This document shows positions 21,859-35,927 of a stretch of 38,988 nucleotides of DNA, in pieces; within the stretch, counting starts at the first letter, position 1, and every line of letters begins with the position of its first letter. Below the pieces are notes generated by a model. That model saw only the letters and a list, made by a program, of their open reading frames with translations. It ran no database searches and was not told the origin of the DNA. A program made the position numbers and the translations under genes. This stretch comes from Methanobacteriota archaeon (lineage in GTDB: Archaea > Thermoplasmatota > Poseidoniia > Poseidoniales > Poseidoniaceae): positions 39,902-78,889 of the forward strand of contig PBKJ01000012.1 of NCBI GenBank assembly GCA_002722135.1, written 5' to 3'.

Positions 21859-22515
21859 ATGCTGTTCACCCGCGGGCTGTCCGTGGGATACGACCATGCG
21901 TTGGTATCGAACATTGACTTGGACGTCTTTCCGGGCGACATCATCGGAATCATCGGGGCTTCAGGAATCGGAAAAACCACGATTTTGAGGACCTTGGCCG
22001 GCTTGATCCCCCCGTTCCGAGGCAGCCTCGAGCACTCCCTTGTGAAAAACGGAGAATTGGGCTACATCCCTCAGCGGCTTGGCCTCGTTCGTCACGCTTC
22101 CGTTGAACACAACGTCGCCTTGGGAGCGCGGGCCACTGCACGCAAGCCGCCGGCAGGCACCTCGAATCGTCAATGGAAAGCAACGGTCACCCGCGAAGCG
22201 ATCAATGCGATGGGGTTGACCGAGAAAACCCGTGAACCGGTCCGGCGGCTCTCAGGTGGTCAACAACGCCGTACCGCCACCGCACGCACCCTTGCCCAGC
22301 GGCCTCGCATCATCCTCGCCGATGAATTTCTCAGTGAACTCGATGCAGAAAACGTCGAGATGGTGTTTGGCGCCATCCACCGGCTTGTGAAGGAAGACGG
22401 CTCTGCCTTGGTGGTGGTCGAGCACAACGTCGAGCGCGCGTTCCGGTATTGCACGCGGGTGCTTCGGGTTCGCGACGGTCGACTGCACCCAGTTCAAGGC
22501 GGTGAGAGCGAATGA
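21859..22515 (+). CDS. PhnC-like ABC transporter ATP-binding protein
   Basis: The cytoplasmic ATPase of an ABC importer, 218 residues from the ATG at 21859. An upstream reading frame exists but would place the 18-bp element inside the gene. Walker A is GASGIGKT (residues 33-40), the signature motif is LSGGQQRR (131-138), Walker B is IILADEF with D155 and E156, and the H-loop is VVVEHNVE. The overall length and the PhnE-type partner permease place it in the phosphonate/phosphite (PhnC) group. However, the helical region (residues 90-110, RKPPAGTSNRQWKATV) is unusual. It overlaps the permease start by 4 nt (ATGA). The binding-protein gene is not adjacent but lies 4.8 kb away at 27211. The true substrate is uncertain; see the findings on the shared operator. 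Confidence 0.88.
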   Translation: MLFTRGLSVGYDHALVSNIDLDVFPGDIIGIIGASGIGKTTILRTLAGLIPPFRGSLEHSLVKNGELGYIPQRLGLVRHASVEHNVALGARATARKPPAGTSNRQWKATVTREAINAMGLTEKTREPVRRLSGGQQRRTATARTLAQRPRIILADEFLSELDAENVEMVFGAIHRLVKEDGSALVVVEHNVERAFRYCTRVLRVRDGRLHPVQGGESE

Positions 22516-23420
22516 ACCGGGGCACCCTCAAGATAGGGCTGGTGACGTCCGGCCTGCTGCTGCTGACGGTGGTGGTCCTGAACGATTTGGCCGTGGGACA
22601 CTGGTCGCGCTTTGAGGGGGGATGGGACAACCTTCGTCGTCTGGTCACAGAAAGCCTCTGGCCACCGGATTGGACGGTCCTGAAGGCACGCAATTACCCG
22701 CCCTGTGAAGCTGCCTTTGGTTTCATGTGTTCCAAAGCCTACCTTGGGATGCTTGAGACCCTCAAAATGGCCTTCGTAGGAACCGTGATTGGTTTCCTTG
22801 GAGCCATCGTGTTGGCGCCTTTGGCAGCAAGCAACCTCGCGCCTTCATGGGTCGGAGGGCCTGCCCGCCTCCTTTTGGCCGGCATGCGCAGCCTTCCCAG
22901 CATCATTTGGGCCATCCTCTTCGTGGCCATCGTTGGCCTGGGGCCGCTCGCTGGCGTTCTCGCCATGGCCTTCTACACGGTGGGCTACCTCGGCAAACTC
23001 CAGTTTGAGTCCTTTGAAGGGCTGGCCAACGGCCCCATCGAAGCTGCCCGAGCCATGGGGATGAACCGAACGGAGACCTTCCTTTTCGTGGTCGTTCCTG
23101 AATCTGCGAACGGGTTGATCAGCCAACTGTTGTTCATGTTCGAATACAACGTCCGGCACGGCAGCGTGCTTGGGTTGGTGGGGGCAGGTGGCATTGGGTA
23201 CTACCTGTCGTATTACCTTGGATTCCTGCTCTATGACGCCGTGATGGCGCTCATTCTGGTCATTTTCGTGGTCGTGGTCGCCATTGAAGCCGTCTCACGA
23301 CGGCTTCGTTCCTTCCTCTCAGAATCCGATGACGTGCCCAAAGCCAGTTGGATCTCCGTCCTCATGAGCCCCGGCCGTGCCGCGGCGGCTGACGCCACGT
23401 CGACGGACGCTGAGGTATGA
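22512..23420 (+). CDS. PhnE-like ABC transporter permease
   Basis: An integral membrane permease of 302 residues with about six helices. The first is an N-terminal signal-anchor-like helix (LKIGLVTSGLLLLTVVVL). The core (LKMAFVGTVIGFLGAIVLAPLAASN, SLPSIIWAILFVAIVGLGPLAGVLAMAFYT) is that of the PhnE/BPD_transp_1 family. The EAA coupling loop is GPIEAARAMGMNRTETFLFVVVPES. RSLPSIIWAILF and VGAGGIG are strong PhnE-type signatures. The start overlaps the ATPase gene (ATGA), and the PIG-O-like gene follows after 9 nt, so all three form one operon. A cytoplasmic C-terminal tail of about 35 residues is present. Confidence 0.9.
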   Translation: MNRGTLKIGLVTSGLLLLTVVVLNDLAVGHWSRFEGGWDNLRRLVTESLWPPDWTVLKARNYPPCEAAFGFMCSKAYLGMLETLKMAFVGTVIGFLGAIVLAPLAASNLAPSWVGGPARLLLAGMRSLPSIIWAILFVAIVGLGPLAGVLAMAFYTVGYLGKLQFESFEGLANGPIEAARAMGMNRTETFLFVVVPESANGLISQLLFMFEYNVRHGSVLGLVGAGGIGYYLSYYLGFLLYDAVMALILVIFVVVVAIEAVSRRLRSFLSESDDVPKASWISVLMSPGRAAAADATSTDAEV

Positions 23421-23429
23421 GGTGGGAGG

Positions 23430-26018
23430 GTGAGCGAACGCGGCCTCACGGCCCTACTCATCGCCCTGATAACGGTGCCCCTGCTGGCCCACACGGCTCC
23501 CTACGTCTATGGCAATCCCAAGGAGCCGAGCACGGTCTTTGCTGCACCTGAAAACCACGAACCGCTCAGCGAAGGCGTGGTGTTGATCCTCCTCGATGGG
23601 GTGGGTGAAAGCATCATGCTTGACGAAGCCAAGATGCCCAAGTTGCACGACCGTTTGACCGGCAGCGCTGTGCTTTCCCTCACGACGGGACCCATCACCC
23701 TCTCGGCCACAGCGACGAGCGAGATGATGACGGGCGTTCCGAACGCGCCGGTTGATGGGTTCAGAAATTTCAGGTTGAGTCATCCAGGAGGCACCGACCC
23801 ATGGCTGAGTGCAGCGGAGGACCCGCGTTACTCCGTGGGCATGGTCGGCTCCTACGTCATGGGGAACCTCTACGACCCCTTCCCTGAGATCGAATTTGTC
23901 AACACGTTCGGCGGCAACGGCGACTACTACGAAGGGGACGCTGAAACGACGCGGCTGGGACTGGAATGGCTCGAAGAAAGACGGCACAACGTCATGGCTT
24001 TGCATTATTCTGGAACAGACAAAGTCGGGCACCATTGGGGCATTGAAACCGACATCTATCACGAAAAGTTGCTCGACGTTGACGGCCAAGTCGATGAGGT
24101 GCTCAACGCCCTGCCGTCGGGATGGACGGCCATCGTCACGGCCGACCACGGGATGACCTCAACCGGAAGCCACGGTTCGTCTGAGGCCGTGACGCGGGAA
24201 GTGGCCGCCGTGCTCATCGGCGCAGGGGTGCGTCAGGGCGTCACCCATGATGGGCACCAGCGCGACCTTGCCGCCCTTCTCCCAGCGTTGCTTGACCTGC
24301 CCTTCCCTGCCCAACTGCACGGTCAAATCCCGCTCGATGCGCTGGCCCTTCTTCCCGGGGAATCCGAACGGTTGGAGGCATGGAATTGGCAGGCGGCCGT
24401 CGAACGGGCCACCTTCCATCAGGTTCAGGACGGCGGTCCGCCGCTCAATACATCGACCATCGAATGGTCACGTGTCCAAGGCGATGAAGGCCTGAACAGG
24501 CCCACTGACGTGGCGCTTTCGGCCCTGACGTGGGCCGTGTTGCTCGGGCTTGCGGCCCGTTGGGCACATCGGCGATACGGCGGAGGCTGGTTTGGGCTGC
24601 TCGCGGGTGGTGCTGGATTGATCGTGCTCCTTTCCGCTCAAGCCTCCCTTGGTTGGTCTGCGATGGTCCCACGCGGCCTTGGAGCTGTGGCGGCTGCAGG
24701 GTTGACGCGTCTTGCGCTGGCGCCTGACGGAGCCTGGACGGAGGGGCATGCTCGTGCTGACCGCTGGGAGGTCGGTGGCCTGCTCGGACTGATGCTCCTC
24801 GTGCTCCTCTTTGGCGATGCGAGCCAAGCCATCGTGGTGGGGTGCATGGGAAGCGTGGGGGTGTTGGCGTTCAGGGCGGGGCAAAACCGGCCCTTGCCTT
24901 CGTGGAATGCTGCAGCGCCTGCCGTGGGGGCCGTGCTGGTGCTTCTTGCCGCATCCTATGGCAGCTTGAGGGTCTGGTTCGTGCTTCCGGTCTTGTTTGG
25001 ATGGGGCCTTGGCAGGGTTGTGGAACACCTACGAGAATCTCCATCGATTGGAGCCCTCGATTGGACCGCCGGCATGACCGCCATGGCTGCCCTCGGACTG
25101 CTGCTTCCTCATCGTCGAATCTTGGACGGAAACCTGTTGCTCGAGTTGGTACGGATGGATCCATTCGGAGACGCCGTTAGTGGAGTGTTCTCGTTGGGCA
25201 TCCTCGCCCTGACTGCTGGCGTTTGGACCTTGCACGTGCACGGGCGCATTCGCATGCGCCAAAATGCACTGATGCTCGGGATGTTGATCGCCGTCATGGC
25301 GGTTCGCTTTGCCAGGGCCACCCTCGTGGACTGGATGGCCTTGGCCGTGTTGCTGGTGGTGTACATCACGGCGGCCAGGGACGTGTTGGATGCGTCGTCT
25401 TCAGGGACGTTGCCCAGAGGCATGTTCGAGGCCGCGTTGACGGGCCACATGCTGTTGATTTGGGGGCCTTGGGCTGCCTTGAGCAGCCTGTGCGTGCTTG
25501 TCATCACCCCACGTTTGGTGAAGGCGATGGAGCGAAAGCAGGTCACACGGTACCTTTGGGTCACACACGCCGTGCTTCCGTGGGTGCTCGTGGCAACGTG
25601 GTGGACCATGCTCGGCCAGGTGGACGGCGTGCAAACGTGCCATGAGGGGTTATGCCCGTACCCCAGAGAACTCGATCCTGGAACCGTGGTGCTGAACGGG
25701 GGGTATGTGGGAGCCCGAGAGAATCCCTCCGACCAGTGGATTGGCATGATGGTGGTGACGCCGTTGCTGGCCGTCATTGGGTCCTTGTGCTGGGCGTTCA
25801 GCCACGCAGGTGTTGATCTGCGCCCTTACCTCACTTTGCAGGGGCTGCTCATGGTCGGCTGCTTGGCCACGTTGGCCTTTGCACCGTCCTATCCACGGTT
25901 GGTGTTTGCACTGTCCTACAACGCCCTCTTTGCCGCGTTGCAGGTGATGGTCGGCGCGGCAGTGGTCCTGCTGGTAATGCGGCAGGAACGAAGGCATCAG
26001 ATGGCGCTCACTGCGTAG
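23430..26018 (+). CDS. PIG-O-like phosphoethanolamine transferase / alkaline-phosphatase-fold phosphodiesterase with multi-helix membrane domain
   Basis: An 862-residue membrane enzyme with a GTG start 4-5 nt after GAGGTGG. An N-terminal helix leads to an outward alkaline-phosphatase-superfamily domain (about 45-340). Metal and nucleophile positions are visible: D56 in LILLDGVG, a Thr in GPITLSATATSEMMTG, D197 and H201 in SGTDKVGHHWG, D239 and H240 in TADHGMTSTGSHG, and H248. These closely follow the eukaryotic GPI ethanolamine-phosphate transferases PIG-O and PIG-G. Residues 360-855 form a long series of about 12 or more membrane helices, as in that family. Its reaction is probably transfer or removal of a phosphodiester head group outside the membrane. 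Co-transcription with PhnC/PhnE-like genes could mean it releases a phospho-compound or decorates a lipid or glycan. The substrate is unknown. Confidence 0.8.
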   Translation: MSERGLTALLIALITVPLLAHTAPYVYGNPKEPSTVFAAPENHEPLSEGVVLILLDGVGESIMLDEAKMPKLHDRLTGSAVLSLTTGPITLSATATSEMMTGVPNAPVDGFRNFRLSHPGGTDPWLSAAEDPRYSVGMVGSYVMGNLYDPFPEIEFVNTFGGNGDYYEGDAETTRLGLEWLEERRHNVMALHYSGTDKVGHHWGIETDIYHEKLLDVDGQVDEVLNALPSGWTAIVTADHGMTSTGSHGSSEAVTREVAAVLIGAGVRQGVTHDGHQRDLAALLPALLDLPFPAQLHGQIPLDALALLPGESERLEAWNWQAAVERATFHQVQDGGPPLNTSTIEWSRVQGDEGLNRPTDVALSALTWAVLLGLAARWAHRRYGGGWFGLLAGGAGLIVLLSAQASLGWSAMVPRGLGAVAAAGLTRLALAPDGAWTEGHARADRWEVGGLLGLMLLVLLFGDASQAIVVGCMGSVGVLAFRAGQNRPLPSWNAAAPAVGAVLVLLAASYGSLRVWFVLPVLFGWGLGRVVEHLRESPSIGALDWTAGMTAMAALGLLLPHRRILDGNLLLELVRMDPFGDAVSGVFSLGILALTAGVWTLHVHGRIRMRQNALMLGMLIAVMAVRFARATLVDWMALAVLLVVYITAARDVLDASSSGTLPRGMFEAALTGHMLLIWGPWAALSSLCVLVITPRLVKAMERKQVTRYLWVTHAVLPWVLVATWWTMLGQVDGVQTCHEGLCPYPRELDPGTVVLNGGYVGARENPSDQWIGMMVVTPLLAVIGSLCWAFSHAGVDLRPYLTLQGLLMVGCLATLAFAPSYPRLVFALSYNALFAALQVMVGAAVVLLVMRQERRHQMALTA

Positions 26019-27184
26019 ACGCCACCCGTCCAACTGGACACCAGAATGGCGCCGTCTTCCGCCACCGCCAAGCCCACGATGAACAGGTTCGTTGTGGCGA
26101 TAAGGGTGGATTCGATGCCCGAATCGCCGGGATGAGCCACCCAAACCTCGCCTGAGCAAAAGTCGCCGTAGAGGAACCCGCCGGTGGGCGCCAGCACGGA
26201 CGGCTCAAGCCATGGACCACCGAGAATGGAACAGCGGCCGTCCTCATGGCCGTAGGTCAAGACCGGGTCGACCAGACCCTCCTCTGGCTCAGTGAGCGGT
26301 GTGTCGCAGGGTGCGTCGGCCGAGAACGGCATGTGCCCTTCGCGTTCGTTCCATCCAAAATTGGTCGGATCATCCCACGACGGAATGTGGTTCACTTCCT
26401 CCCAACACCGTTGGCCAACGTCGGCGATCCACAATCCTCCGGTTGAATCTAGGGCCATGCGGAACGGATTGCGAAGACCATGGTGAAGCAGGAGCTCATC
26501 GTGGTCGCCGGAAACGTTGCTTGCGGGTACAACTGAACCGTTGTCGATGGAGAAGTGGAGGATGCCGCCAAGCAGCGAGGAGGTGTTTTGCCCGTGCCCG
26601 TAGGGGTCGTTGGAACCTCCACCATCGCCCACGGACAACAGGAAACTGCCGTCCGCCAACCTGATCAGGTCGGCTCCGTTGTGGTTGCGTTTGACCTGTG
26701 GAAGCCGCAGCACAACCTCTGGAACGGCGTCCAGACCTTGCTCAAGGTCGAGGACGGCCACCACCACATCCGACACGTGTGAAGGGTCGCAAGGGCCTGC
26801 CTCGACGTACACGATCAGGGCTTGATTGGTGCTTTCGTTGGCGTTCATGGCTTCGAAGGCAAGCAGGCCCTGTTCGTTGTGGCAGGTGCTCACCAATGAG
26901 GTCAGGTTGACCAAGATTTGTGCCTCGTTCTCTGCCCAACGAACGATGGTCCCGTCCAGCATGCTGACGATGACGTCGGCTCCAAGAGGAGCGATGTCAA
27001 TCACTGCAGCCGACGTCTCCAGACGCAGATCGCAGCTGAGGTTGTGTCCTGACGTGAGGTCACAACCGCTGATTGGCTCTGGCTCTGGCCACTCAAACGT
27101 TGGAGGAGATTCCTCCTCCGCAGGGCCGAGGCACCCGCTCAGCACGGGCAAGACCAGCATCAAGGCCAACACGAATGGGCGCAT
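25997..27184 (-). CDS. PQQ-type sugar dehydrogenase-like lipoprotein (GSDH/HHIP beta-propeller)
   Basis: A 395-residue exported lipoprotein. The signal peptide ends in a lipobox (LVLPVLSGC, C18). The body is a six-bladed propeller of the glucose/sorbosone dehydrogenase family, with segments DIAPLGADVIVSMLDGTIVRW, GDGGGSNDPYGHGQNTSSLLGGILHF, HGLRNPFRMALDSTGGLWIADVGQRCWEEVNHI, and TNFGWNEREGH. These match the PQQ- and calcium-binding GDGGxxxDPxxxxQ, RNPxG and NYGW patterns. Several family members do not oxidise sugars, so enzymatic activity is uncertain. It overlaps the PIG-O-like gene tail to tail by 22 nt. It shares the strand of the PhnD-like gene, 26 nt downstream, and is probably in the same transcript. 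Confidence 0.82.
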   Translation of the reverse strand: MRPFVLALMLVLPVLSGCLGPAEEESPPTFEWPEPEPISGCDLTSGHNLSCDLRLETSAAVIDIAPLGADVIVSMLDGTIVRWAENEAQILVNLTSLVSTCHNEQGLLAFEAMNANESTNQALIVYVEAGPCDPSHVSDVVVAVLDLEQGLDAVPEVVLRLPQVKRNHNGADLIRLADGSFLLSVGDGGGSNDPYGHGQNTSSLLGGILHFSIDNGSVVPASNVSGDHDELLLHHGLRNPFRMALDSTGGLWIADVGQRCWEEVNHIPSWDDPTNFGWNEREGHMPFSADAPCDTPLTEPEEGLVDPVLTYGHEDGRCSILGGPWLEPSVLAPTGGFLYGDFCSGEVWVAHPGDSGIESTLIATTNLFIVGLAVAEDGAILVSSWTGGVYAVSAI

Positions 27185-27210
27185 GACTCTCCCTCGCCGG
27201 GTGCGTCCGT

Positions 27211-28332
27211 TCAGTTGGCGATTTTCTCATTAAAGTAGGCTTCAATCCCAGGCACGTTCTCGATGGAGTCACCGTAGGTCCCGAGGTGGGACTCGGTGTC
27301 AATGATGGTGAACCCTGGCGTGCTGAAGACGGCATCGAGGACGTCAAGGTCCGCTTGGCTGCCGCCGTCGTTTGGCCCGAGGCTCATCGTGCGGAGGGCT
27401 TCCTGCAGTGCGGTCACCTGTGCCGCGTCCATGTAGGCTGGGTTGAACATGACAGGATGGCTGGGGGCTCGTCCGAATCCGTCACCGCCGTTGGCGCTGT
27501 AGTTCACGCCGTGGAAATCCGCGGTGCTGTCGAAGTCGCCTTCGAAGCACCAGTCCTCGGGCGTCTCACCGCAGTAATCGGGAACGGTGGGGTCCTTGGC
27601 GAAGGAGATGTAGTCGGTGGCATCGCCGGTGCTGTGTTCAGCCAAGCATCGGAGGGAGCCGATGTACTTGTGATAGCGCGTGCCGCTGGAGGGAATGGAC
27701 GAATCCTCTGAGAAGTGGTTGCGGACCGTGTCGGTCAAGGAATCAATCGTATCTGGGTCACCGACCACTTCGACATAGCCGTTGCTGATCATGAAACCCA
27801 TCGGAAGCAGCATTCCGGAGCTGCCCAGGGCAGAGGTATGGCACGAGACCTTGCCTTCCATGAGGGCGAAGGGATCGGTGTCAGGGTCATCGTCAAGATC
27901 GGCCTGAGCGATGTCCGAGTCCACGTGGACCCATGCAATCGCCTTGTAGAAGGGGCGACCGTCTGCCTTCTGTTCAGCAGCGAGAACTTCAAGCCCGTGG
28001 GTTTGCCAGCTGAGCCATGCAGCTCCGCCGTCCATGAAGCCAATGTCAGCGTGTCCGAACCGCAAGGCCTCAATGGCGCCTGCAGCGCTGGTCACGGGGT
28101 AAATCTCAACCTCCATGTCCAGAAGTTCAGCAAGTCGGTCGGCAAACTCCTGGGGGTTTTCCTCCGTGTTCTGATACTCTTCTTTGGTCTCGAAGGCGAT
28201 CGTCAAGCAGTTGTCTTGGTCTTCGCAGGTTGGGAAGCTCACCGAGCTGGAAAGGCAACCCGAGAGCCCTGCTGAAACCATGACGAGGCACATCAGAAGG
28301 GCGTGAACAGTGGGAAGGGCGGCGCGAATCAT
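27211..28332 (-). CDS. PhnD-like ABC transporter substrate-binding lipoprotein
   Basis: A 373-residue extracellular lipoprotein. The signal peptide ends LMVSAGLSGC-like (C26 in LSGC). The type II binding-protein fold of the PhnD (phosphate/phosphite/phosphonate) family is shown by EALRFGHADIGFMDGGAAW, PFYKAIAWVHVDSDI, LMEGKVSCHTSALGSSGMLLPMGFM and the C-terminal TALQEALRTMSLG. It has an extra insert with cysteines (YIGSLRCLAEHSTGDATDY, YCGETPEDWCFEGDF) not typical of phosphonate binders. The usual serine/threonine phosphate loop is present only as SALGSSGM. It is separate from its probable ATPase and permease at 21859-23420 but shares the 18-bp operator with them. The promoter overlaps copy 2 of the element, and the mRNA is probably leaderless. 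Confidence 0.85.
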   Translation of the reverse strand: MIRAALPTVHALLMCLVMVSAGLSGCLSSSVSFPTCEDQDNCLTIAFETKEEYQNTEENPQEFADRLAELLDMEVEIYPVTSAAGAIEALRFGHADIGFMDGGAAWLSWQTHGLEVLAAEQKADGRPFYKAIAWVHVDSDIAQADLDDDPDTDPFALMEGKVSCHTSALGSSGMLLPMGFMISNGYVEVVGDPDTIDSLTDTVRNHFSEDSSIPSSGTRYHKYIGSLRCLAEHSTGDATDYISFAKDPTVPDYCGETPEDWCFEGDFDSTADFHGVNYSANGGDGFGRAPSHPVMFNPAYMDAAQVTALQEALRTMSLGPNDGGSQADLDVLDAVFSTPGFTIIDTESHLGTYGDSIENVPGIEAYFNEKIAN

Positions 28333-28354
28333 GGGCTGTCCAGAGGAGGTCTCT

Positions 28355-28372
28355 TTTTAGGGATTGCGAAAT
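28355..28372 (+). promoter_or_regulatory. Conserved 18-bp element (copy 2), over the phnD-like promoter
   Basis: TTTTAGGGATTGCGAAAT lies in the 139-bp divergent region. Read on the minus strand, its CCCTAAAA end (TAAAAA at 28359-28354) is centred about 25 nt before the phnD-like ATG at 28332. It can therefore serve as that gene's TATA box while also being the operator. Confidence 0.65.
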
Positions 28373-28379
28373 ATCCTGA

Positions 28380-28397
28380 TTTTCGTTCACCCTCAAC
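28380..28397 (-). promoter_or_regulatory. Degenerate fourth copy of the 18-bp element
   Basis: On the minus strand GTTGAGGGTGAACGAAAA agrees with the consensus at 11 of 14 fixed positions. It lies between the two full copies, in the opposite orientation. It may be a weaker co-operative site, or chance. Confidence 0.35.
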
Positions 28398-28423
28398 CAA
28401 GTTGCTAAGATGTCTTTTCTCAT

Positions 28424-28441
28424 TTTTAGGGCAAACGAAAT
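28424..28441 (+). promoter_or_regulatory. Conserved 18-bp element (copy 3), operator of the FEA1-haem operon
   Basis: TTTTAGGGCAAACGAAAT ends 30 nt before the FEA1 ATG. Its CGAAA overlaps the BRE position just before TTATAT, so repressor binding would exclude the TFB/TBP complex. Confidence 0.7.
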
Positions 28442-28448
28442 CTTATAT
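28436..28448 (+). promoter_or_regulatory. BRE and TATA box of the FEA1-like gene
   Basis: CGAAA (28436-28440) is a canonical archaeal BRE, followed by TTATAT (28443-28448). The TATA centre is about 26 nt from the ATG at 28472, so transcription should start at or next to the start codon, giving a leaderless mRNA. Confidence 0.6.
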
Positions 28449-28471
28449 CCAAATGCTGTTTCGGCCCGACC

Positions 28472-29734
28472 ATGACGAAGACCCTTCGTGCACTTGCCCT
28501 GACCCTGACTTTGCTGCTGGCCTCCCTCGCGGGCTGTGTCGCAGAAGACGAAACGAACGACGAAACTCCTGTGGACGAGAAGCCTGCCTTCTTGGATGCA
28601 TCCGACGCAGGTTACACCTACGCGTCCGACGTGGACAACCACCGTTCGCTGATGCTGGACCTCTGCGACATCAAGACCGCGGCCAGCGAAAGCGACTGGG
28701 ACACCGCCACCCAGATTTACATGAACGGCAAGAACGCTCAGAAGGACGACGGATCCTACCGAACGCTGGCCGGATTCGCTGCCGCCTCCGGCAAGAACCA
28801 CAACTACGACGCCTACTATGGTGTGGACGGCGCCATCGGCGGCCACATCATGCAGGCGCTGAACGGCGACGGTGACTTCGCCGGCACCTCGGACACCGTC
28901 CGCTACCAAGGCATCGCAAAGCTGACCGCCAACATGGGCATGGTCGGCTACACCATCCACGAGCTCAACGCCGCGGTGGCCAAGGCCGACGCCGGCAACA
29001 TCGACGACGACACGGGCGCGCCCCACAACTGGGACGAAGGATGGGCTTTCTTCCACGGACCGGATGAGCACTACGGTTGCTCTCCTGCTAAGGTCATGGA
29101 AAAGCGAGCCGCTGATTTCGGCACGGCCGACGCCGACGGCGTTGCTGCGACCTTCAAGGCCGCCGAGCAAGCCATGGTTGACGGACTCGCCGCCCTCCAG
29201 GCGGGCGACGAAGCCGGCTACGACGCCGCCACCGAGACCGTGATCAAGAACATCATCATCACCTACTCCCAGGCGACGCTGAAGTACACCTCGAAGATGG
29301 ACAGCACCGACAGCGCCGAGAAGTACCAAGCCGAAGGCTACGCCTTCTGGAAGACCATCGAGGCCTATGCCGCCCCATACACCGACGGTTGCTACAACAT
29401 GGCCGTTCACAAGGTCTTCATGATGGGCGACATCGACGCCTCGGCTTGTGACGCCTTCATCTGGACCAACGGCTCCATGGACAGCACCGGTACCAACGAC
29501 ACCTGCTACAACACCGTGACGCACCAAGTGTCCACGGACGTCAGCAACGAAACCGAGTGCGACGGCTACGCAGCCATGTACTTCCAGGACAAGTATGGCG
29601 CCGAGAAGATCAACGAGATCGTCAACCTGCAGGATGCGACCAAGCTCGGTACGTCCTACGACGTTGCACCTCACCTCGCACAGGTCTGGGCGCACTACGG
29701 CATCACTGCCGCAGACATCGGCTCGATGAGCTGA
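28472..29734 (+). CDS. FEA1/phytotransferrin-like iron-assimilation lipoprotein
   Basis: A 420-residue exported lipoprotein (LLLASLAGC lipobox, C22) with an acidic spacer after the cysteine. The body resembles the low-iron-inducible periplasmic FEA1 family: DSDWDTATQIYMNGKNAQK-like start (ASESDWDTATQIYMNGKN), YDAYYGVDGAIGGHIMQALNG, the helical TVRYQGIAKLTANMGMVGYTIHEL, and HNWDEGWAFFHGPDEHYGCSP. The histidine-, tyrosine- and aspartate-rich segments could bind iron with carbonate, as reported for algal phytotransferrins. The C-terminal part has paired cysteines (TDGCYNMAVHKV, DASACDAF, NDTCYN, ETECDGY). It heads the operon of surface protein, FecBCD-type transporter and HugZ, 51-57 nt before the next gene. 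A conserved operator and BRE/TATA lie upstream. The assignment is from remembered family motifs. Confidence 0.78.
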   Translation: MTKTLRALALTLTLLLASLAGCVAEDETNDETPVDEKPAFLDASDAGYTYASDVDNHRSLMLDLCDIKTAASESDWDTATQIYMNGKNAQKDDGSYRTLAGFAAASGKNHNYDAYYGVDGAIGGHIMQALNGDGDFAGTSDTVRYQGIAKLTANMGMVGYTIHELNAAVAKADAGNIDDDTGAPHNWDEGWAFFHGPDEHYGCSPAKVMEKRAADFGTADADGVAATFKAAEQAMVDGLAALQAGDEAGYDAATETVIKNIIITYSQATLKYTSKMDSTDSAEKYQAEGYAFWKTIEAYAAPYTDGCYNMAVHKVFMMGDIDASACDAFIWTNGSMDSTGTNDTCYNTVTHQVSTDVSNETECDGYAAMYFQDKYGAEKINEIVNLQDATKLGTSYDVAPHLAQVWAHYGITAADIGSMS

Positions 29735-29791
29735 TCCCGGACGGAACGAGTCATTCAACGTGGTTCACGTCCCAACACGGAGGCCATGAGC

Positions 29792-32110
29792 ATGGAGCAA
29801 CGCGCCAAGCGCGCGCTCCTGCTCATGGTCGTCCTGCTGGGAGCAACACTCAGCGCGTCGGTTGCAGCAAGCGATGCTCCGGAGACCTACACCATCACAG
29901 GCCACGTCTTGCTCGAAAACGGGCAAGCCGCCGGCTCAAGCACGGTCCGTCTTGACGACCGCGGTTCGGTGATGACCGACCAAGGAACGTACGTCATCGA
30001 GGACGTCGCCCCGGGCCGGCATACGATCCGTGCATACTTCATGTCGGATGGACACGTTGCGATTTACCGAGAAATCATGGTCACAGGTGATGCATCGGTC
30101 GATTTCACCATCGGTCAAAACGTGGTGACAGCATCGGTTTCTGATCCTCAAGGAAATCCCTTGATCGGCGATCTTCGCACGCTTGGAGGCCCTTGGACGA
30201 GCGCTGATGGATGGACGGAGTTCGGACCGTTCCCAACCGGTACACTGGTCGAAGTCCAGGCATTGTTTGACGACGGTTCAACCGCCACCCATGCGGTCCG
30301 GTCCGACGGAGGGAAGATCGGTGAGCCCTCTCGAAACCACGTTCCTGTGACCCATGGGACCACAGGCGTCTACGGCTTTGTCCAGGATCAACTGGGGAAC
30401 CCTGTCGCAAACATCGACGTCACGACCGGGAGCCGCACGGCCACCACCCGAGACGATGGCATGTACAGCATGAATGGCCTCAGCACCACCGTGAACCACA
30501 CGTTCAGCTACACGCAACAGGGTCTGGAGGTGGCCGGAAACCAAAGTATCGTTCTCAATGGCACATCGGGATGGAAGAACCTCACGCTCGAACGGGCGTT
30601 GGTGCTTCCAGGAAACGTCTCTTTCACCACAGGAGCGAACGTGGTGTCCATGCAACCGTTCGTGATCGAGTGGACCACGGCCCAGCACGCCAACCGCTAC
30701 GTCCTCACGCTTGACGGGATTCCGATGTATGACGGCCCATCCACGGCCTTCACGTTCACGCCTCAAAGTGAGGGGGAACACCGATTTGGACTCGCGGCCT
30801 ACAACCCGAACGGTTCAACGGCAGCCTTCCAGGACCTGCTGATAATCGTCCTTCCCGAACAAGGCGAGAACGGGCATTGGACGGCTGGAATGCAGTGGAC
30901 CTACGATCAGACCTACACCCCTGCTGCTTCCGATGGCGTGCTTCGCCGAACCTACACCTGCCTCGGTACGGAAACCGTCTCGGACGCGTTCGGAGTCGAA
31001 CGTTCAACCTACCTTCTGGACGTCCATGACCCAAATTACCTGCCAGACGAACGATCCATGCGTTGGGTCGACGAAGAATCGCTCTTGGCCGTACGAAGCT
31101 ACTGGTCTGACGATCCTTCTTCATCGAATCAGTTCACCGATGCCAGCCTTGGCTGGACGTTCACCGACGAACAAGGCCAACCTTCCACCCTCATGAACGG
31201 ATCAACATCAGTATGGTTCAATCGGACCACAGTGATTGGTGTTCCTGGCCACCCAAACGGCTACGACGACACCAACAACACGATTTCCGTGGAAGAGGAT
31301 GTCTCCGTCACCACACCTGCAGGCTCTTTTTTGACCACGAAATACATCTTGACCGACGACGATGATGGTGTCGTCTCGTGGGAACTCTACTACAACGCCA
31401 CGGTCAGGAATTTCGTCAAGGTCGTTGACCGACTACCGGGTTCTCATTCTGACATGGTGGAGAAGGTGCTTGTCGCATTCGATGTGCCAACCGCTCCAGT
31501 CTTCATCATGGAATCCAGCCAAGTTTCGACACGGACCGTTGACCTTGAATGGGGTGCCTTCCCAGGCGCGGATCGGTATGTCGTCATCCATGACGGTGCC
31601 GAGATGTACAACGGCACCGCGACCAACCTGACCACCTCTGAGTTTGAAGACGGGACCTACACGTTCACCGTCGAGGCCATCATGGCCGACGGGCGACGAT
31701 TGGCCTCCGATGACCTGACGCTCGAAGTGACCTACGTCAGCCCAACCCCGACGTTTGATACGGGTCCAACCACGGCGGATGCAGAAGACGAAATTCAGCT
31801 GTCATGGTCGCACGATGCGGGGGTCACCTTCGTGCTTCTGCATGAGCGTCCTGACGGATCAATGGAGGAGGTGGAAGACCTCAACCTACGAACACACATG
31901 GCCGTCGTCGACGACGTCGGACGTCACCGGTTCCGCGTCAAAGCCATCGAAGCAGACGGGTCAACGTCTGAATGGTCAGAATCGGTCGTCGTGATGGTTG
32001 TAGAACCGAATGATGCCCCCGAACAAACCAACAACCCGTGGGTGATCATTGCCGGTGGACTGATCTTCTTGACCATCGGAATCCAACTGGTTAGGGGGCG
32101 CCCGTCATGA
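29792..32110 (+). CDS. Surface protein with carboxypeptidase-regulatory-like and FN3-like domains, C-terminal anchor
   Basis: About 772 residues from the ATG at 29792, which lies 8 nt after GGAGG; the ATG at 29786 is only 2 nt from that site. A signal peptide (ALLLMVVLLGATLSASVAA) is followed by carboxypeptidase-regulatory-like beta-sandwiches (YTITGHVLLENGQAAGSSTVRL near residue 30, VYGFVQDQLGNPVANIDVTT near residue 190). An FN3-like domain comes next, then a central unrecognised domain starting GHWTAGMQWTYDQTYTP (about 360-560). Two more FN3-like domains follow (VDLEWGAFPGADRYVVI, IQLSWSHDAGVTFVLL). The C-terminus has one membrane helix (WVIIAGGLIFLTIGIQLV). It overlaps the binding-protein gene by ATGA, so it belongs to the uptake operon. 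It may capture haem or an iron chelate at the cell surface; no binding motif proves that. Confidence 0.75.
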   Translation: MEQRAKRALLLMVVLLGATLSASVAASDAPETYTITGHVLLENGQAAGSSTVRLDDRGSVMTDQGTYVIEDVAPGRHTIRAYFMSDGHVAIYREIMVTGDASVDFTIGQNVVTASVSDPQGNPLIGDLRTLGGPWTSADGWTEFGPFPTGTLVEVQALFDDGSTATHAVRSDGGKIGEPSRNHVPVTHGTTGVYGFVQDQLGNPVANIDVTTGSRTATTRDDGMYSMNGLSTTVNHTFSYTQQGLEVAGNQSIVLNGTSGWKNLTLERALVLPGNVSFTTGANVVSMQPFVIEWTTAQHANRYVLTLDGIPMYDGPSTAFTFTPQSEGEHRFGLAAYNPNGSTAAFQDLLIIVLPEQGENGHWTAGMQWTYDQTYTPAASDGVLRRTYTCLGTETVSDAFGVERSTYLLDVHDPNYLPDERSMRWVDEESLLAVRSYWSDDPSSSNQFTDASLGWTFTDEQGQPSTLMNGSTSVWFNRTTVIGVPGHPNGYDDTNNTISVEEDVSVTTPAGSFLTTKYILTDDDDGVVSWELYYNATVRNFVKVVDRLPGSHSDMVEKVLVAFDVPTAPVFIMESSQVSTRTVDLEWGAFPGADRYVVIHDGAEMYNGTATNLTTSEFEDGTYTFTVEAIMADGRRLASDDLTLEVTYVSPTPTFDTGPTTADAEDEIQLSWSHDAGVTFVLLHERPDGSMEEVEDLNLRTHMAVVDDVGRHRFRVKAIEADGSTSEWSESVVVMVVEPNDAPEQTNNPWVIIAGGLIFLTIGIQLVRGRPS

Positions 32111-33210
32111 ACGAACCTCATCCAAGGAAGATGCTGGGTTCAGTCCAACTTGTGGCCATCCTGGTGCTTGCTTACGCGATGATTCACGTGGTCACGAACG
32201 AAACGGAACTTGCTGATGAGGGAGGCATCGCTGTCACCGACACCAGCGGTGAGGTGTTCACTTTTGATGCACCTCCTGACCGAATCGTGGTCTCGAACAC
32301 GTACGCCGCCACCGCCATGCGCATGCTCGACGCCGACATGGAATCGATCGTCGGGGTGAGTGGAGATTTCGAGGACAGCGAACTTTGGCCGGAACTCTCA
32401 GCTCGCCCTTGGGTGCAATTTTCTGCACATTCTGAAATTGACTATGAGGCCTTGCTGGACACGCGACCTGACGTGTACGTGGTCTTTGCCACCAACGGCA
32501 TGGTCGACACCGATGCCATCCGTGAGCGGTTGACTCCGCTGGGCATCGACGTGGTGGCGTTTGACTTCTACAAGTATGACGCCTTGCGCGAAGAGTTTCG
32601 GCAACTGGCCATCATGCTCGACCAAATGGAAGCCTATGATGCGCTGATGGGAGAATTCGACGCCATTGAAGCCACCATGAACGAGGCGCTTGGAGACCTT
32701 CGTGACGAGGACCGCCCCACCGTGATCATGGAACATCATGCTTCGCTCACCAGAGACCCTGTCGTGCTGACTGGAACCTCCCAATGGGACGACATCATCC
32801 GTATCGCAGGTGGAAGCAACGTCTTCAGCGATCTCCCCGGACACACCACGCACGTGGACATGGAAGCCATCCTGGATGCAGACCCGGACGTCATGATGTT
32901 TGACGGAATCACGTTCGAATTGGGTTACGGAAACAACGACCCAAACAGTGGCTGTCCAGAGCACTTTGATTTGATTGAGGGCCGCCCTGGATTCGATGCT
33001 CTTCAAGCCGTCAACAACGGTGAGTTGCATATTTTCTCAGGCGCGTTCGCCGGCCCGATGATGATTCATGGGCTTCCGTTCATCGCCGAACAATTCCACC
33101 CAGAACGCTTCGAAGAAGGCAGTGGTGAGGCCTCATTGGACGCATTTTTCGAAGACCACTTCGATCTACAGCGGACCGGCACCTTCCTGTGCACCGTTGG
33201 AGGCGAATGA
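32107..33210 (+). CDS. FecB/BtuF-type periplasmic-binding protein (haem, siderophore or cobalamin)
   Basis: A 367-residue binding protein of the type III (helical-backbone) class that serves FecCD/BtuCD permeases. The N-terminus has a hydrophobic helix (VQLVAILVLAYAMIHVV) without a lipobox, so it is probably a membrane-tethered form, unlike the lipoproteins elsewhere in the window. Family marks include PDRIVVSNTYAATAMRMLDA, VGVSGDFEDSELWPEL, IDYEALLDTRPDVYVVF, DDIIRIAGGSNVFSDLPGHTTHVDMEAILDADPDVMMF, and the C-terminal GLPFIAEQFHPERFEE. The substrate cannot be decided from sequence alone, but the HugZ gene in the operon favours haem or another iron compound. It overlaps the surface-protein gene (ATGA) and is followed by the permease after 1 nt. 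Confidence 0.88.
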   Translation: MNEPHPRKMLGSVQLVAILVLAYAMIHVVTNETELADEGGIAVTDTSGEVFTFDAPPDRIVVSNTYAATAMRMLDADMESIVGVSGDFEDSELWPELSARPWVQFSAHSEIDYEALLDTRPDVYVVFATNGMVDTDAIRERLTPLGIDVVAFDFYKYDALREEFRQLAIMLDQMEAYDALMGEFDAIEATMNEALGDLRDEDRPTVIMEHHASLTRDPVVLTGTSQWDDIIRIAGGSNVFSDLPGHTTHVDMEAILDADPDVMMFDGITFELGYGNNDPNSGCPEHFDLIEGRPGFDALQAVNNGELHIFSGAFAGPMMIHGLPFIAEQFHPERFEEGSGEASLDAFFEDHFDLQRTGTFLCTVGGE

Positions 33211-33211
33211 T

Positions 33212-34252
33212 GTGCCCGACGTGGTCGGTGCATACATCGAAGGTCAGCGAAAGCGCCTAGCCTCGCTCTTCATCGCCTCCGCTTTGACCCTCGTGGCCGC
33301 CCTTCTCTCAATGGGCTTCGGCTCTTCAGAAAGCCTGTCGATGGGCGCCACGCTCCGCCTCCTCTTCGGACTTCAGGCCTCAGAAGGGCTGCAACGAGAA
33401 ATCCTCCTCAACCTTCGCCTCCCGCGCGTGCTCGTGGCCCTCGCTGGAGGCGCTGCTCTCGCCATGGCCGGGACCATGATGCAAGGGGTGTTGGGAAACC
33501 CGCTGGTCTCCCCGTTGACGTTGGGCGTCGCCTCCGGCGCTGGGCTTGGGGCAGCCCTCGCCATCGTTCTCGACATCTCGGTGTTCGGGCAGGCAGAATT
33601 CGCCATCCTCGGAAATGCATTCCTCTTCGCCATGATGGTGGTTGCGATCATCATCAAACTCGGCGACATGTCCACAGTCACGGCAGAATCCTACATCCTC
33701 GTCGGGATCGCCATCACGTTCATCGCCGGCGCCATGGTCCAAACGATGCAATATTTTGCCACCGATGCGCAAATCTCTCAACTGACCCACTGGAGTTTCG
33801 GCAGTTTGTCCCGTCCGAGCCTCCAACACGCGTTGTGGATTTCGCTGTTCGTGGTGGTCATGCTTCCTTCGGGACTGGTCGCGGCTTGGGATTTGAACAC
33901 CCTCGCCGTCGGGGGTGACGATTTCGCGGCAGCGACAGGCGTCGATCCAAGGTCCACCCGACGGTCCGTGCTGATTCTTTCAGCAACGTTGACGGCGGTG
34001 GTCATTTCGTTCACCGGCATCATTGGTTTCCTGGGCCTCGTCGCACCACATGTGTCCCGTCTGCTGGTCGGCAACGATTACCGAACCTTGTTGCCGTTCT
34101 CTGCCGTCATGGGTGCAGCGGTCTTGCTTGTTGCCGACACCATCGGCCGGACCTTGTTTGCGCCCATTGTGCTCCCTGTTGGCGTCATGCTTTCGGTCAT
34201 CGGTGGACCGTTTTTCCTCTACCTCTTGCTGTCAAGGAGGGGCCGCGCATGA
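33212..34252 (+). CDS. FecCD/BtuC-type ABC transporter permease
   Basis: An integral membrane permease of 346 residues with about nine to ten helices. The GTG start at 33212 follows a GGAGG by 9 nt and begins PDVVGAYIEGQRKRLASLF; earlier in-frame starts would lie inside the binding-protein gene. Family motifs are NLRLPRVLVALAGGAALAMAGTMMQGVLGNPLVSPLTLGVASGAGLGA and GIIGFLGLVAPHVSRLLVGNDYRTLLPFSA, the classic FecCD signature, plus the late DTIGRT-like region (LVADTIGRTLFAPIVLPVGV). It would form a homodimer with two copies of the ATPase encoded next. It overlaps that gene by 4 nt. The substrate class includes haem, siderophores and cobalamin. Confidence 0.93.
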   Translation: MPDVVGAYIEGQRKRLASLFIASALTLVAALLSMGFGSSESLSMGATLRLLFGLQASEGLQREILLNLRLPRVLVALAGGAALAMAGTMMQGVLGNPLVSPLTLGVASGAGLGAALAIVLDISVFGQAEFAILGNAFLFAMMVVAIIIKLGDMSTVTAESYILVGIAITFIAGAMVQTMQYFATDAQISQLTHWSFGSLSRPSLQHALWISLFVVVMLPSGLVAAWDLNTLAVGGDDFAAATGVDPRSTRRSVLILSATLTAVVISFTGIIGFLGLVAPHVSRLLVGNDYRTLLPFSAVMGAAVLLVADTIGRTLFAPIVLPVGVMLSVIGGPFFLYLLLSRRGRA

Positions 34253-35076
34253 GCAACGTCTTGCTCAAAGCTGAGCGGCTGGAGTTCTCCTTTGGGGAAC
34301 GCTTGGTCCTCAATGGCGTTGATTTGACCGTGCAACCCGGTGAAGTGGTGGCCTTGCTCGGCCGAAATGGTGCAGGAAAGACGACGTTGCTGAAAATGCT
34401 GAACGGTTTGTTGACGCCTGCACGCGGAACCGTCATGCTTGGAAATCGAACGCTCGATGAACTCAGTTTGCCCGAACGTGCCAGACGTTCAGCCTACGTG
34501 CCTCAGAGCATCACAAGCGCCTTTCCAATGCGCGTCATCGATGTCGTGCTGCTCGGTCGTCGTCCATATGTCACATGGCGGCTCAGCAAGAACGACATCA
34601 AAATCGCGTCAGACACCCTGGCCACCTTGGGCTTGGACGCGTTCGCCTTCCGTCGGTTCACAGAACTGTCCGGTGGTGAACGTCAACAGGTGGTGATGGC
34701 CAAAGCGCTGGCTCAGGAAGCATCCTTGCTGTTGCTCGACGAACCCACAAGCGATTTGGATTTGAACAATCAAATCGGTGTGATGAAACGCATCCGAAGT
34801 GTGGTGGACGACATGGACCAGCGCGCCGCGGTCATTGTCATGCACGACCTCAACGCAGCGGCTGCATACGCCGACCGTGTGGTCCTGATGCATGAAGGGC
34901 GTGTTGAAGCGGTTGGCCGCCCTGAAGAGGTGCTGACCGAGGCCAATCTTGCCAAGGTGTTCATGGTGGAAGCCAGCATCGACGTGGCGCCGACTGACGG
35001 ACGCCTACGAATCCATGTGCACGACGAGGTCAGCGCCTCGGTCATGCACCATACAAAGCAAGGTGATGAACGATGA
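34249..35076 (+). CDS. FecE/BtuD-type ABC transporter ATP-binding protein
   Basis: The ATPase partner of the upstream FecCD permease, 275 residues. Walker A is GRNGAGKT (38-45, K44), the Q-loop is in YVPQSITSAFPM, the signature is LSGGERQQVVMAKAL (140-154), Walker B is LLLLDEPTSDLD (D164, E165), and the H-loop histidine is in VIVMHDLN. GRRPYVTW and the RAAVIVMHDLNAAAAYADRVVLM stretch are typical of iron-siderophore, haem and B12 importers. A strong AAGGAGGGG site precedes the ATG, which overlaps the permease stop. The C-terminal 30 residues (IDVAPTDGRLRIHVHDEVSAS) form the small extra strand segment seen in this group. Its stop overlaps the HugZ start. Confidence 0.94.
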   Translation: MSNVLLKAERLEFSFGERLVLNGVDLTVQPGEVVALLGRNGAGKTTLLKMLNGLLTPARGTVMLGNRTLDELSLPERARRSAYVPQSITSAFPMRVIDVVLLGRRPYVTWRLSKNDIKIASDTLATLGLDAFAFRRFTELSGGERQQVVMAKALAQEASLLLLDEPTSDLDLNNQIGVMKRIRSVVDDMDQRAAVIVMHDLNAAAAYADRVVLMHEGRVEAVGRPEEVLTEANLAKVFMVEASIDVAPTDGRLRIHVHDEVSASVMHHTKQGDER

Positions 35077-35927
35077 GCGACAGGACAACACAACAGGACA
35101 AGCGTGCTGAACAAGAGGCACACAAGGAAGCCCATGACGGTGAGGACCCCTCGACCAACGTTGCAGCTTGGCTGCATGAAACGCGAGCTGCGACCCTCTC
35201 AACGTTGGCCGTGAAGCCGGGCATCGAAGGATTCCCAATCGGATCGATTGTTCCGTTTGCCATCGATGAAACCGGCCGGCCGTTCATTTTGGTGGCGAGC
35301 ATCGCTGCGCACACACGCAACATCGACGCTGACCCACGGGCTTCCCTGTTCATTTCAGATCCTGAAGCCAAAGGCGACCCGCAATCAAGCTGGCGTGCGT
35401 CCTTGCTTGGCGAGATGCGGGTTGTGGCCGTGGAAGGTGAGGAGGTTGATGTGTCAGAAGAGCGAATCGACCGGGTCACAGCCGAAGAGCACGCTCATTT
35501 GTTGGCGCGGTACGTGGAACGGGTCCCTGCGGCTGAATCCTACGTGAAGGTGCACAACTTCAGTTTCTACCGAATGAGCACCATCGAACGCATCCGCTAC
35601 ATCGCGGGCTTTGGTCGCATTTGTTGGATCCCCGGTCGCCAATACATGGAAGCCGTCTCAGATGCTGAACTTGCAGAAGCAGCGCCCGGAGCCATCGAGC
35701 ACATGAACGACGACCATGTCGACGCCATGGTGACCATCGTCAAGGGCCATCGCGGCATTGACGTGGAGTCGGTGAACATGGTCGACCTCGACCCAAACGG
35801 CATGATGCTGGAAACGAACGAACCCCATCACCTGATGTACGTCTCGTTCGAGAACCGCATCACGGCTGATAGCATGCGGACAGAGATCATCAACAGCGTG
35901 GTCGCCGCCAGGAAGGCCATCGGTTGA
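35073..35927 (+). CDS. HugZ/HutZ-type haem-utilisation protein (PNPOx-like + DUF2470)
   Basis: A 284-residue cytoplasmic protein combining a split-barrel, pyridoxamine-oxidase-like domain (about residues 27-190) with a C-terminal DUF2470 domain (about 200-284). In HugZ and HutZ proteins this architecture binds haem and opens the ring to release iron. Visible marks are NVAAWLHETRAATLSTLAV, FPIGSIVPFAIDETGRPFILVASIAAHTRNI, ASLFISDP, GFGRICWIPG, and in the second domain EHMNDDHVDAMVTIVKGH, with histidines suited to haem ligation. An unusually charged 25-residue N-terminal tail precedes the barrel. It overlaps the ATPase gene (ATGA) and ends the operon, so imported haem would be degraded here. 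Other flavin or haem-binding roles of PNPOx-DUF2470 proteins are possible. Confidence 0.85.
   Translation: MSDRTTQQDKRAEQEAHKEAHDGEDPSTNVAAWLHETRAATLSTLAVKPGIEGFPIGSIVPFAIDETGRPFILVASIAAHTRNIDADPRASLFISDPEAKGDPQSSWRASLLGEMRVVAVEGEEVDVSEERIDRVTAEEHAHLLARYVERVPAAESYVKVHNFSFYRMSTIERIRYIAGFGRICWIPGRQYMEAVSDAELAEAAPGAIEHMNDDHVDAMVTIVKGHRGIDVESVNMVDLDPNGMMLETNEPHHLMYVSFENRITADSMRTEIINSVVAARKAIG

Follow-up and report, generated by a model that had tools for sequence, protein, structure and literature searches.

The closest described counterparts of the system treated here are the transferrins (PF00405; serum transferrin, lactoferrin and ovotransferrin), the PhnCDE phosphonate importer, the phytotransferrin (ISIP2a/FEA1) of diatoms, the HugZ and HOZ haem proteins and the DtxR/IdeR regulons. 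Transferrin and ISIP2a have been reported to stem from a common source within the phosphonate-binding proteins (McQuaid et al. 2018, summarised in PMC7676907), and diatom phytotransferrin acts with a CREG-fold partner, pTF.CREG1, encoded in an iron-sensitive gene cluster (PMC7972479). Marine Group II (MGII), which PMC6461757 describes as outnumbering all other planktonic archaea in the surface ocean, has been reported to have phosphonate transport as part of its core metabolism (PMC6336850), and the main texts of the MGII genome papers searched say little on iron uptake beyond fragmented iron ATP-binding cassette (ABC) transporters. The locus in question lies in a 38,988-nt stretch of contig PBKJ01000012.1 (hereafter the window) from the 1.94-Mb genome of a member of the Poseidoniaceae. 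Eleven genes at coordinates 21859-35927 were analysed together with their operators, and likely form an iron-acquisition island that would combine a transferrin-type ABC importer, capture by an FEA1-related protein, a Fec-type importer, a HOZ/HugZ-type protein and DtxR-type repression.

The preliminary description of this DNA had called one of the binding proteins PhnD-like, an identity that gives way on comparison with the known families, as homology searches identify the protein as a transferrin homologue. It matches the Pfam family Phosphonate-bd at 8.5e-22 and Transferrin at 8.4e-8 (32.2 bits, curated cut-off 20.3), and a two-lobed relative matches Transferrin at 1.4e-25. In a sequence search of the PDB, lactoferrins and transferrins rank best (8e-11), ahead of phosphite- and phosphonate-binding proteins (8e-5 to 2.5e-3, with PhnD at 2.5e-3), and a profile built from 22 archaeal relatives reaches ovotransferrin at 1e-47, both lobes being matched. 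The likeness to transferrins extends over most of the lobe and takes in the Asp/Tyr/Tyr/His set, the SCHT anion-site motif and the existence of one- and two-lobed forms. Residues D101, Y129, Y223 and H292 of the window protein align with D60, Y92, Y192 and H253 of lactoferrin and correspond to the Fe(III) ligands of transferrins as generally known from lactoferrin. Of 78 archaeal sequences, mostly single lobes, 68 have Asp at the first of these positions, 71 and 64 have Tyr at the second and third, 63 have His at the fourth, and all 78 keep the anion-site Thr (T166 in the window). The animal proteins are soluble carriers, whereas the archaeal one is probably the lipid-anchored binding protein of an ABC importer. 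The literature searched, which left out most subscription papers, describes no archaeal transferrin and no archaeal transferrin-type ABC importer.

Of 293 Thermoplasmatota genomes, 74 have a match to PF00405, as does none of 14 control genomes; the 74 comprise 39 of the 43 genomes in the family of the window organism, 29 from a second family of about 40, three from a third (MGIII by title) and three others. In most of some 120 loci the transferrin gene is followed contiguously by phnC and phnE, so that the split Phn transporter of the preliminary description stands for the window but is a local trait. Many archaeal copies are two-lobed, at about 700 aa, and the window copy consists of one lobe of 373 aa, a difference from the usual two-lobed form that is not decisive because monolobal transferrins occur in fish (PMC3125230). 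In a tree of lobes the animal lobes, four in number, cluster together (100/100), and the archaeal N- and C-lobes fall among archaeal sequences, a placement which argues that the archaeal two-lobed form arose by a duplication separate from that of animals; the tree has partial eukaryotic rows, and the archaeal N and C groups are modestly supported (56/89 and 64/99). The window copy falls in one group (100/96) with two solo copies that come from FEA1-bearing members of its own family and with solo copies from the second family, which mostly adjoin a gene for a PQQ-type propeller. Among the best 80 of 287 places in a contig scan, relatives of the transferrin-like protein carry Poseidoniaceae, Thalassarchaeaceae and MGIII titles. 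Operons closely related to the transferrin operon also stand in records labelled Deltaproteobacteria (isolate AH-558-G13, L157) and Flavobacteriaceae (a metagenome-assembled genome, L197), a placement that may reflect mis-binning or transfer. The sole match of a plasmid search was on a Natronococcus occultus plasmid, where a distant, unlisted and apparently frameshifted transferrin relative (L202:3803-5030) has the gene for a metal-dependent regulator on one side and an ATPase-PhnE pair on the other.

Gene order ties the transferrin importer to FEA1. In three loci of family f1, which is probably Poseidoniaceae, the genes for FEA1, a large surface protein, FecB, FecC, FecE, the HugZ-like protein, PhnC and PhnE are contiguous (L043, L047 and L049), and in a fourth (L045) the same order is kept as far as HugZ. 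In family f2, probably Thalassarchaeaceae, FEA1 is followed by a two-lobed transferrin, phnC and phnE, usually with a solo transferrin gene and PQQ genes nearby. Neighbourhoods lacking conservation had been named beforehand as the outcome that would overturn the idea of an island, and the order proved to be kept across genera and two families. FecCD exceeds its cut-off in 11 of the 79 genomes of the order, and all 11 carry FEA1 or a fragment of it, which 22 of the 79 possess (Fisher p = 8e-8; placing G057, which has no more of FEA1 than a fragment at the end of a contig, among the genomes without it gives 2e-6; both values overstate independence because the genomes are related). The FEA1-linked two-lobed transferrin subfamily of the second family holds most of the ligand losses, with the C-lobe worst hit, a pattern that suggests a changed function for these copies. 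Examples of ligand-poor copies linked to FEA1 are found at L034:5638-7827, L036:10659-12794 and L041:10768-13068.

The island resembles the diatom phytotransferrin cluster in having an FEA1-domain protein and, as a counterpart of pTF.CREG1 (PMC7972479), a CREG-barrel protein. The second parallel may be coincidental, since the window protein also has a DUF2470 domain and is closer to HOZ/HugZ; and whereas the diatom protein uses endocytosis, the archaeal island would use two ABC importers instead. FEA1 found no relative in the PDB by sequence search, and its AlphaFold model, built from two sequences (pLDDT 41.4), is too weak for judging sites. The FEA1 proteins of loci L032-L051 contain inserted modules of about 35 aa with the pattern CYN-x3-H-x-V...C, in variable number: several are present in L043 and L032, two in the window protein (residues ~306-363), and the two-lobed transferrin linked to FEA1 has a similar one in its C-lobe. 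It is possible that these modules are extra metal sites.

A common operator provides a further link. The palindrome TTTAGG-N4-CCTAAA stands in the 200 nt before 103 of 119 transferrin-like genes (allowing one mismatch) and before 19 of 20 FEA1 genes, against a background of 2.2% of random stretches from the same loci. The operators of the island are a diverged form of this order-wide sequence, TTTAGGG-N4-CGAAA, and the earlier suggestion that its operons share one operator is confirmed: TTTAGG-N5-CGAAA occurs three times in the 1.94 Mb, each time inside the island, and a reversed-pattern control once. Exact canonical palindromes number four in this genome, upstream of flavodoxin (L206), of nuoA and of a thrombospondin-repeat surface protein (L208, near 1501), and near small genes (L209, near 1501, beside small Cys-rich or unassigned genes). 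Their count alone is not the argument, since the reversed-pattern control with one mismatch allowed gave an equal number. Flavodoxin is a classic iron-starvation gene, and the presence of the palindrome before flavodoxin and nuoA as well points to an iron regulon. One DtxR-family protein (216 aa, L210:1300-1950) is detectable in the window genome, and the operons putatively share an iron-type regulon switch made up of the palindrome and this regulator. Features in common with DtxR/IdeR regulons are the TTAGG...CCTAA-type palindrome, which probably resembles the DtxR consensus, the joining of iron-sparing flavodoxin with iron uptake, and the encoded DtxR-family protein; differences are that the archaeal palindrome is shorter and that its right half has diverged in the window's genus (CGAAA).

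Together, the gene order, the palindrome, the restriction of FecCD to FEA1 genomes, and flavodoxin with nuoA give good support to an iron-acquisition island under one regulator, as the preliminary description had proposed. Sequence homology, ligand residues, operon structure, operator and co-occurrence, all computed here, are in agreement; the binding of iron, its transport and its regulation are inferred. In such an island iron would be caught at the cell surface by the large surface protein together with FEA1, which is related to the phytotransferrin of algae and may hand the iron over to the transferrin lobe. With Asp/Tyr/Tyr/His as ligands, this lipid-anchored lobe would bind Fe(III), carbonate probably being the accompanying anion, and would pass the iron to the PhnE-PhnC permease and ATPase. 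A second iron form, either siderophore or haem, would enter by the FecBCE importer, and haem in the cytoplasm would be dealt with by the HOZ/HugZ-type protein. When iron is replete, the DtxR-family regulator, likely the single one of the genome, would repress the operons at TTTAGG-N4-CCTAAA palindromes. Several observations weigh against this interpretation. The anion-site Arg (R121 of lactoferrin) is Lys in 63 of the 78 archaeal sequences and Gly (G170) in the window protein, a departure from transferrins that may mean a different use of the anion. FEA1 and transferrin are both missing from two congeners of the window organism, G067 and G124, which therefore do without the system; for the genus the island is an accessory trait. 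The AlphaFold model of the transferrin lobe is poor (25 sequences, pLDDT 58.6) and too weak to establish the geometry of the site; a Foldseek search with this model is weakly supportive, as it places transferrins at the top (E 9e-8) with a TM-score of about 0.3.

Could haem be the real cargo? An island devoted mainly to haem, in which Fec and the HugZ-like protein would import and degrade it and the roles of FEA1 and the transferrin lobe would be accessory, is unlikely but has several points in its favour. The best ATPase model for FecE is of the HmuV type, the HugZ-like gene comes directly after fecE in all four f1 loci with Fec genes, the PDB relatives of its product include the haem proteins MSMEG_6519 and PtHOZ1, and the HMN-x-DH motif is kept in the five sequences compared. 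The HugZ-like protein shares the split barrel, DUF2470, this motif and iron neighbours with the DUF2470 (DRI) haem proteins as reported (PMC11014987); its domain order, with the split barrel N-terminal and DUF2470 C-terminal, is that of HOZ/GBP and not of HugZ (PMC11014987). The haem equivalogs are not reached, narrowly for HmuV (NF010068, 249.1 against 261 bits) and widely for HugZ (TIGR04109, 52.6 against 240 bits). The nearest solved relatives of FecB are iron/siderophore-type binding proteins (PDB 6b2x, 6.4e-16), and the transferrin-phnCE operon is widespread without Fec. Haem as the Fec substrate and its breakdown by HugZ, both put forward in the preliminary description, thus remain unproven, no haem-specific equivalog cut-off having been reached.

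The cargo of the Phn-like arm has been questioned in a similar way, since the preliminary description allowed it either a second iron form or a phosphorus compound. That a PhnD-like protein, PhnC and PhnE make up an ordinary phosphonate or phosphite importer, in the iron island by chance, would agree with the permease and ATPase architecture shared with PhnCDE (TIGR02315/TIGR03431/TIGR01097), with PhnE passing its equivalog cut-off, with the Phosphonate-bd match and with published MGII metabolism (PMC6336850). The binding protein, however, falls far short of the PhnD equivalog (TIGR03431, 42.9 bits, cut-off 261.1), is nearer transferrins than PhnD and conserves the transferrin ligand set, and an iron-type palindrome lies upstream. 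The C-P lyase protein PhnJ was found in none of the 79 genomes of the order, the Escherichia coli control being positive and PhnYZ and PhnA not having been searched for, and no phosphonatase match exceeded the cut-off in the genomes searched. Ordinary phosphonate import is hence rejected as the leading idea on the binding-protein sequence, the operator and the absence of PhnJ, and is highly improbable. Iron is the probable cargo of the Phn-like arm, and a phosphorus compound is unlikely, given a binding protein homologous to transferrins and the lack of PhnJ in the 79 genomes. The transferrin-type importer might instead carry another hard trivalent or divalent metal such as manganese, or a metal-anion complex besides ferric carbonate. 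DtxR-family regulators control manganese uptake too, and the Lys or Gly in place of the anion-site Arg would fit; but Asp with two Tyr and His is the ferric set of transferrins, FEA1 is a neighbour and flavodoxin is under the same palindrome, which makes another metal quite improbable. Nor is it at all credible that genome streamlining threw together genes with no joint function: the PIG-O-like and PQQ-type genes do lack an obvious iron role, but the order is held across genera and two families, the palindrome is common to the operons and FecCD occurs only with FEA1.

Beyond this one island, an iron reading of the importer could hold for MGII at large, and on balance we favour it, with less assurance than for the island itself. 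The transferrin-type ABC importer would then be the main iron uptake system of MGII, its two-lobed form independent of that of animals, with a two-lobed copy that lost its iron ligands as a partner of FEA1 in FEA1-bearing Thalassarchaeaceae, and transferrins would not be confined to eukaryotes. The findings suggest that the published phosphonate transport of MGII is this importer. If so, Marine Group II would have a testable route for ferric iron, which might depend on carbonate, like that of diatom phytotransferrin, and would then be exposed to ocean acidification. The phosphonate-transport annotation (PMC6336850), and with it inferences on marine phosphorus cycling, would need correction. 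Transferrin would also gain a prokaryotic transport context, in agreement with the shared origin of transferrin and ISIP2a as summarised in PMC7676907.

Table 1. Genes and operators of the island, with window coordinates and supporting matches.
Feature	Coordinates	Strand	Description
phnC	21859-22515	+	PhnC-type ATPase of the putative transferrin-type importer; TIGR02315 126.7 bits, under equivalog cut-off 266.1; operon conserved
phnE	22512-23420	+	PhnE-type permease, same putative importer as phnC; TIGR01097 236.7 bits, over equivalog cut-off 216.7
PIG-O-like membrane phosphodiesterase	23430-26018	+	PF01676 and PF01663; alkaline-phosphatase-type motifs
GSDH/PQQ-type propeller lipoprotein	25997-27184	-	PF07995 1.7e-15; lipobox LSGC
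Single-lobed transferrin homologue (first called PhnD-like; 373 aa)	27211-28332	-	Lipobox LSGC; D101, Y129, Y223, H292
FEA1-related lipoprotein	28472-29734	+	NF038033 304.9 bits (cut-off 250); PF07692 83.6 (cut-off 25); lipobox LAGC
Large surface protein	29786-32110	+	CarboxypepD_reg domains, C-terminal membrane anchor; between FEA1 and fecB in relatives too
FecB-type binding protein	32107-33210	+	PF01497 4.7e-23; PDB 6b2x 6.4e-16
FecCD-type permease	33212-34252	+	PF01032 1.5e-78; start uncertain, open frame from 33068
FecE/HmuV-type ATPase	34249-35076	+	NF010068 249.1 bits, cut-off 261
HOZ/HugZ-type protein	35073-35927	+	CREG_beta-barrel 1.3e-19, then DUF2470 2.5e-9
Operator TTTAGGGAAGACGAAA	21817-21832		Upstream of phnC
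Operator TTTAGGGATTGCGAAA	28356-28371		Between transferrin and FEA1 genes
Operator TTTAGGGCAAACGAAA	28425-28440		Between transferrin and FEA1 genes
Canonical palindrome TTTAGGGGGCCCTAAA	2230-2245		Upstream of nuoA (complex I gene); same putative regulon

Profile matches and translations place all the genes named in the preliminary description where it had put them (Table 1). The transferrin-like, FEA1 and PQQ-type proteins each start with a hydrophobic signal and a lipobox and are therefore probably lipid-anchored on the outward side of the membrane. The GC content of the island is 59.4%, against 63.1% and 60.8% in its flanks, a difference that is not decisive for horizontal transfer. Conserved as neighbours, the PIG-O-like and PQQ-type proteins have no obvious iron role; the PQQ-type gene comes after the solo transferrin gene in FEA1-bearing genomes, and the PIG-O-like gene adjoins FEA1 in L044 and L046. 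The first of these loci holds the second FEA1 copy of genome G092 (L044:9432-14733), which has as neighbours a NikR-like ribbon-helix-helix protein and a large ZnuA/EF-hand protein and, at its opposite flank, the PIG-O-like gene.

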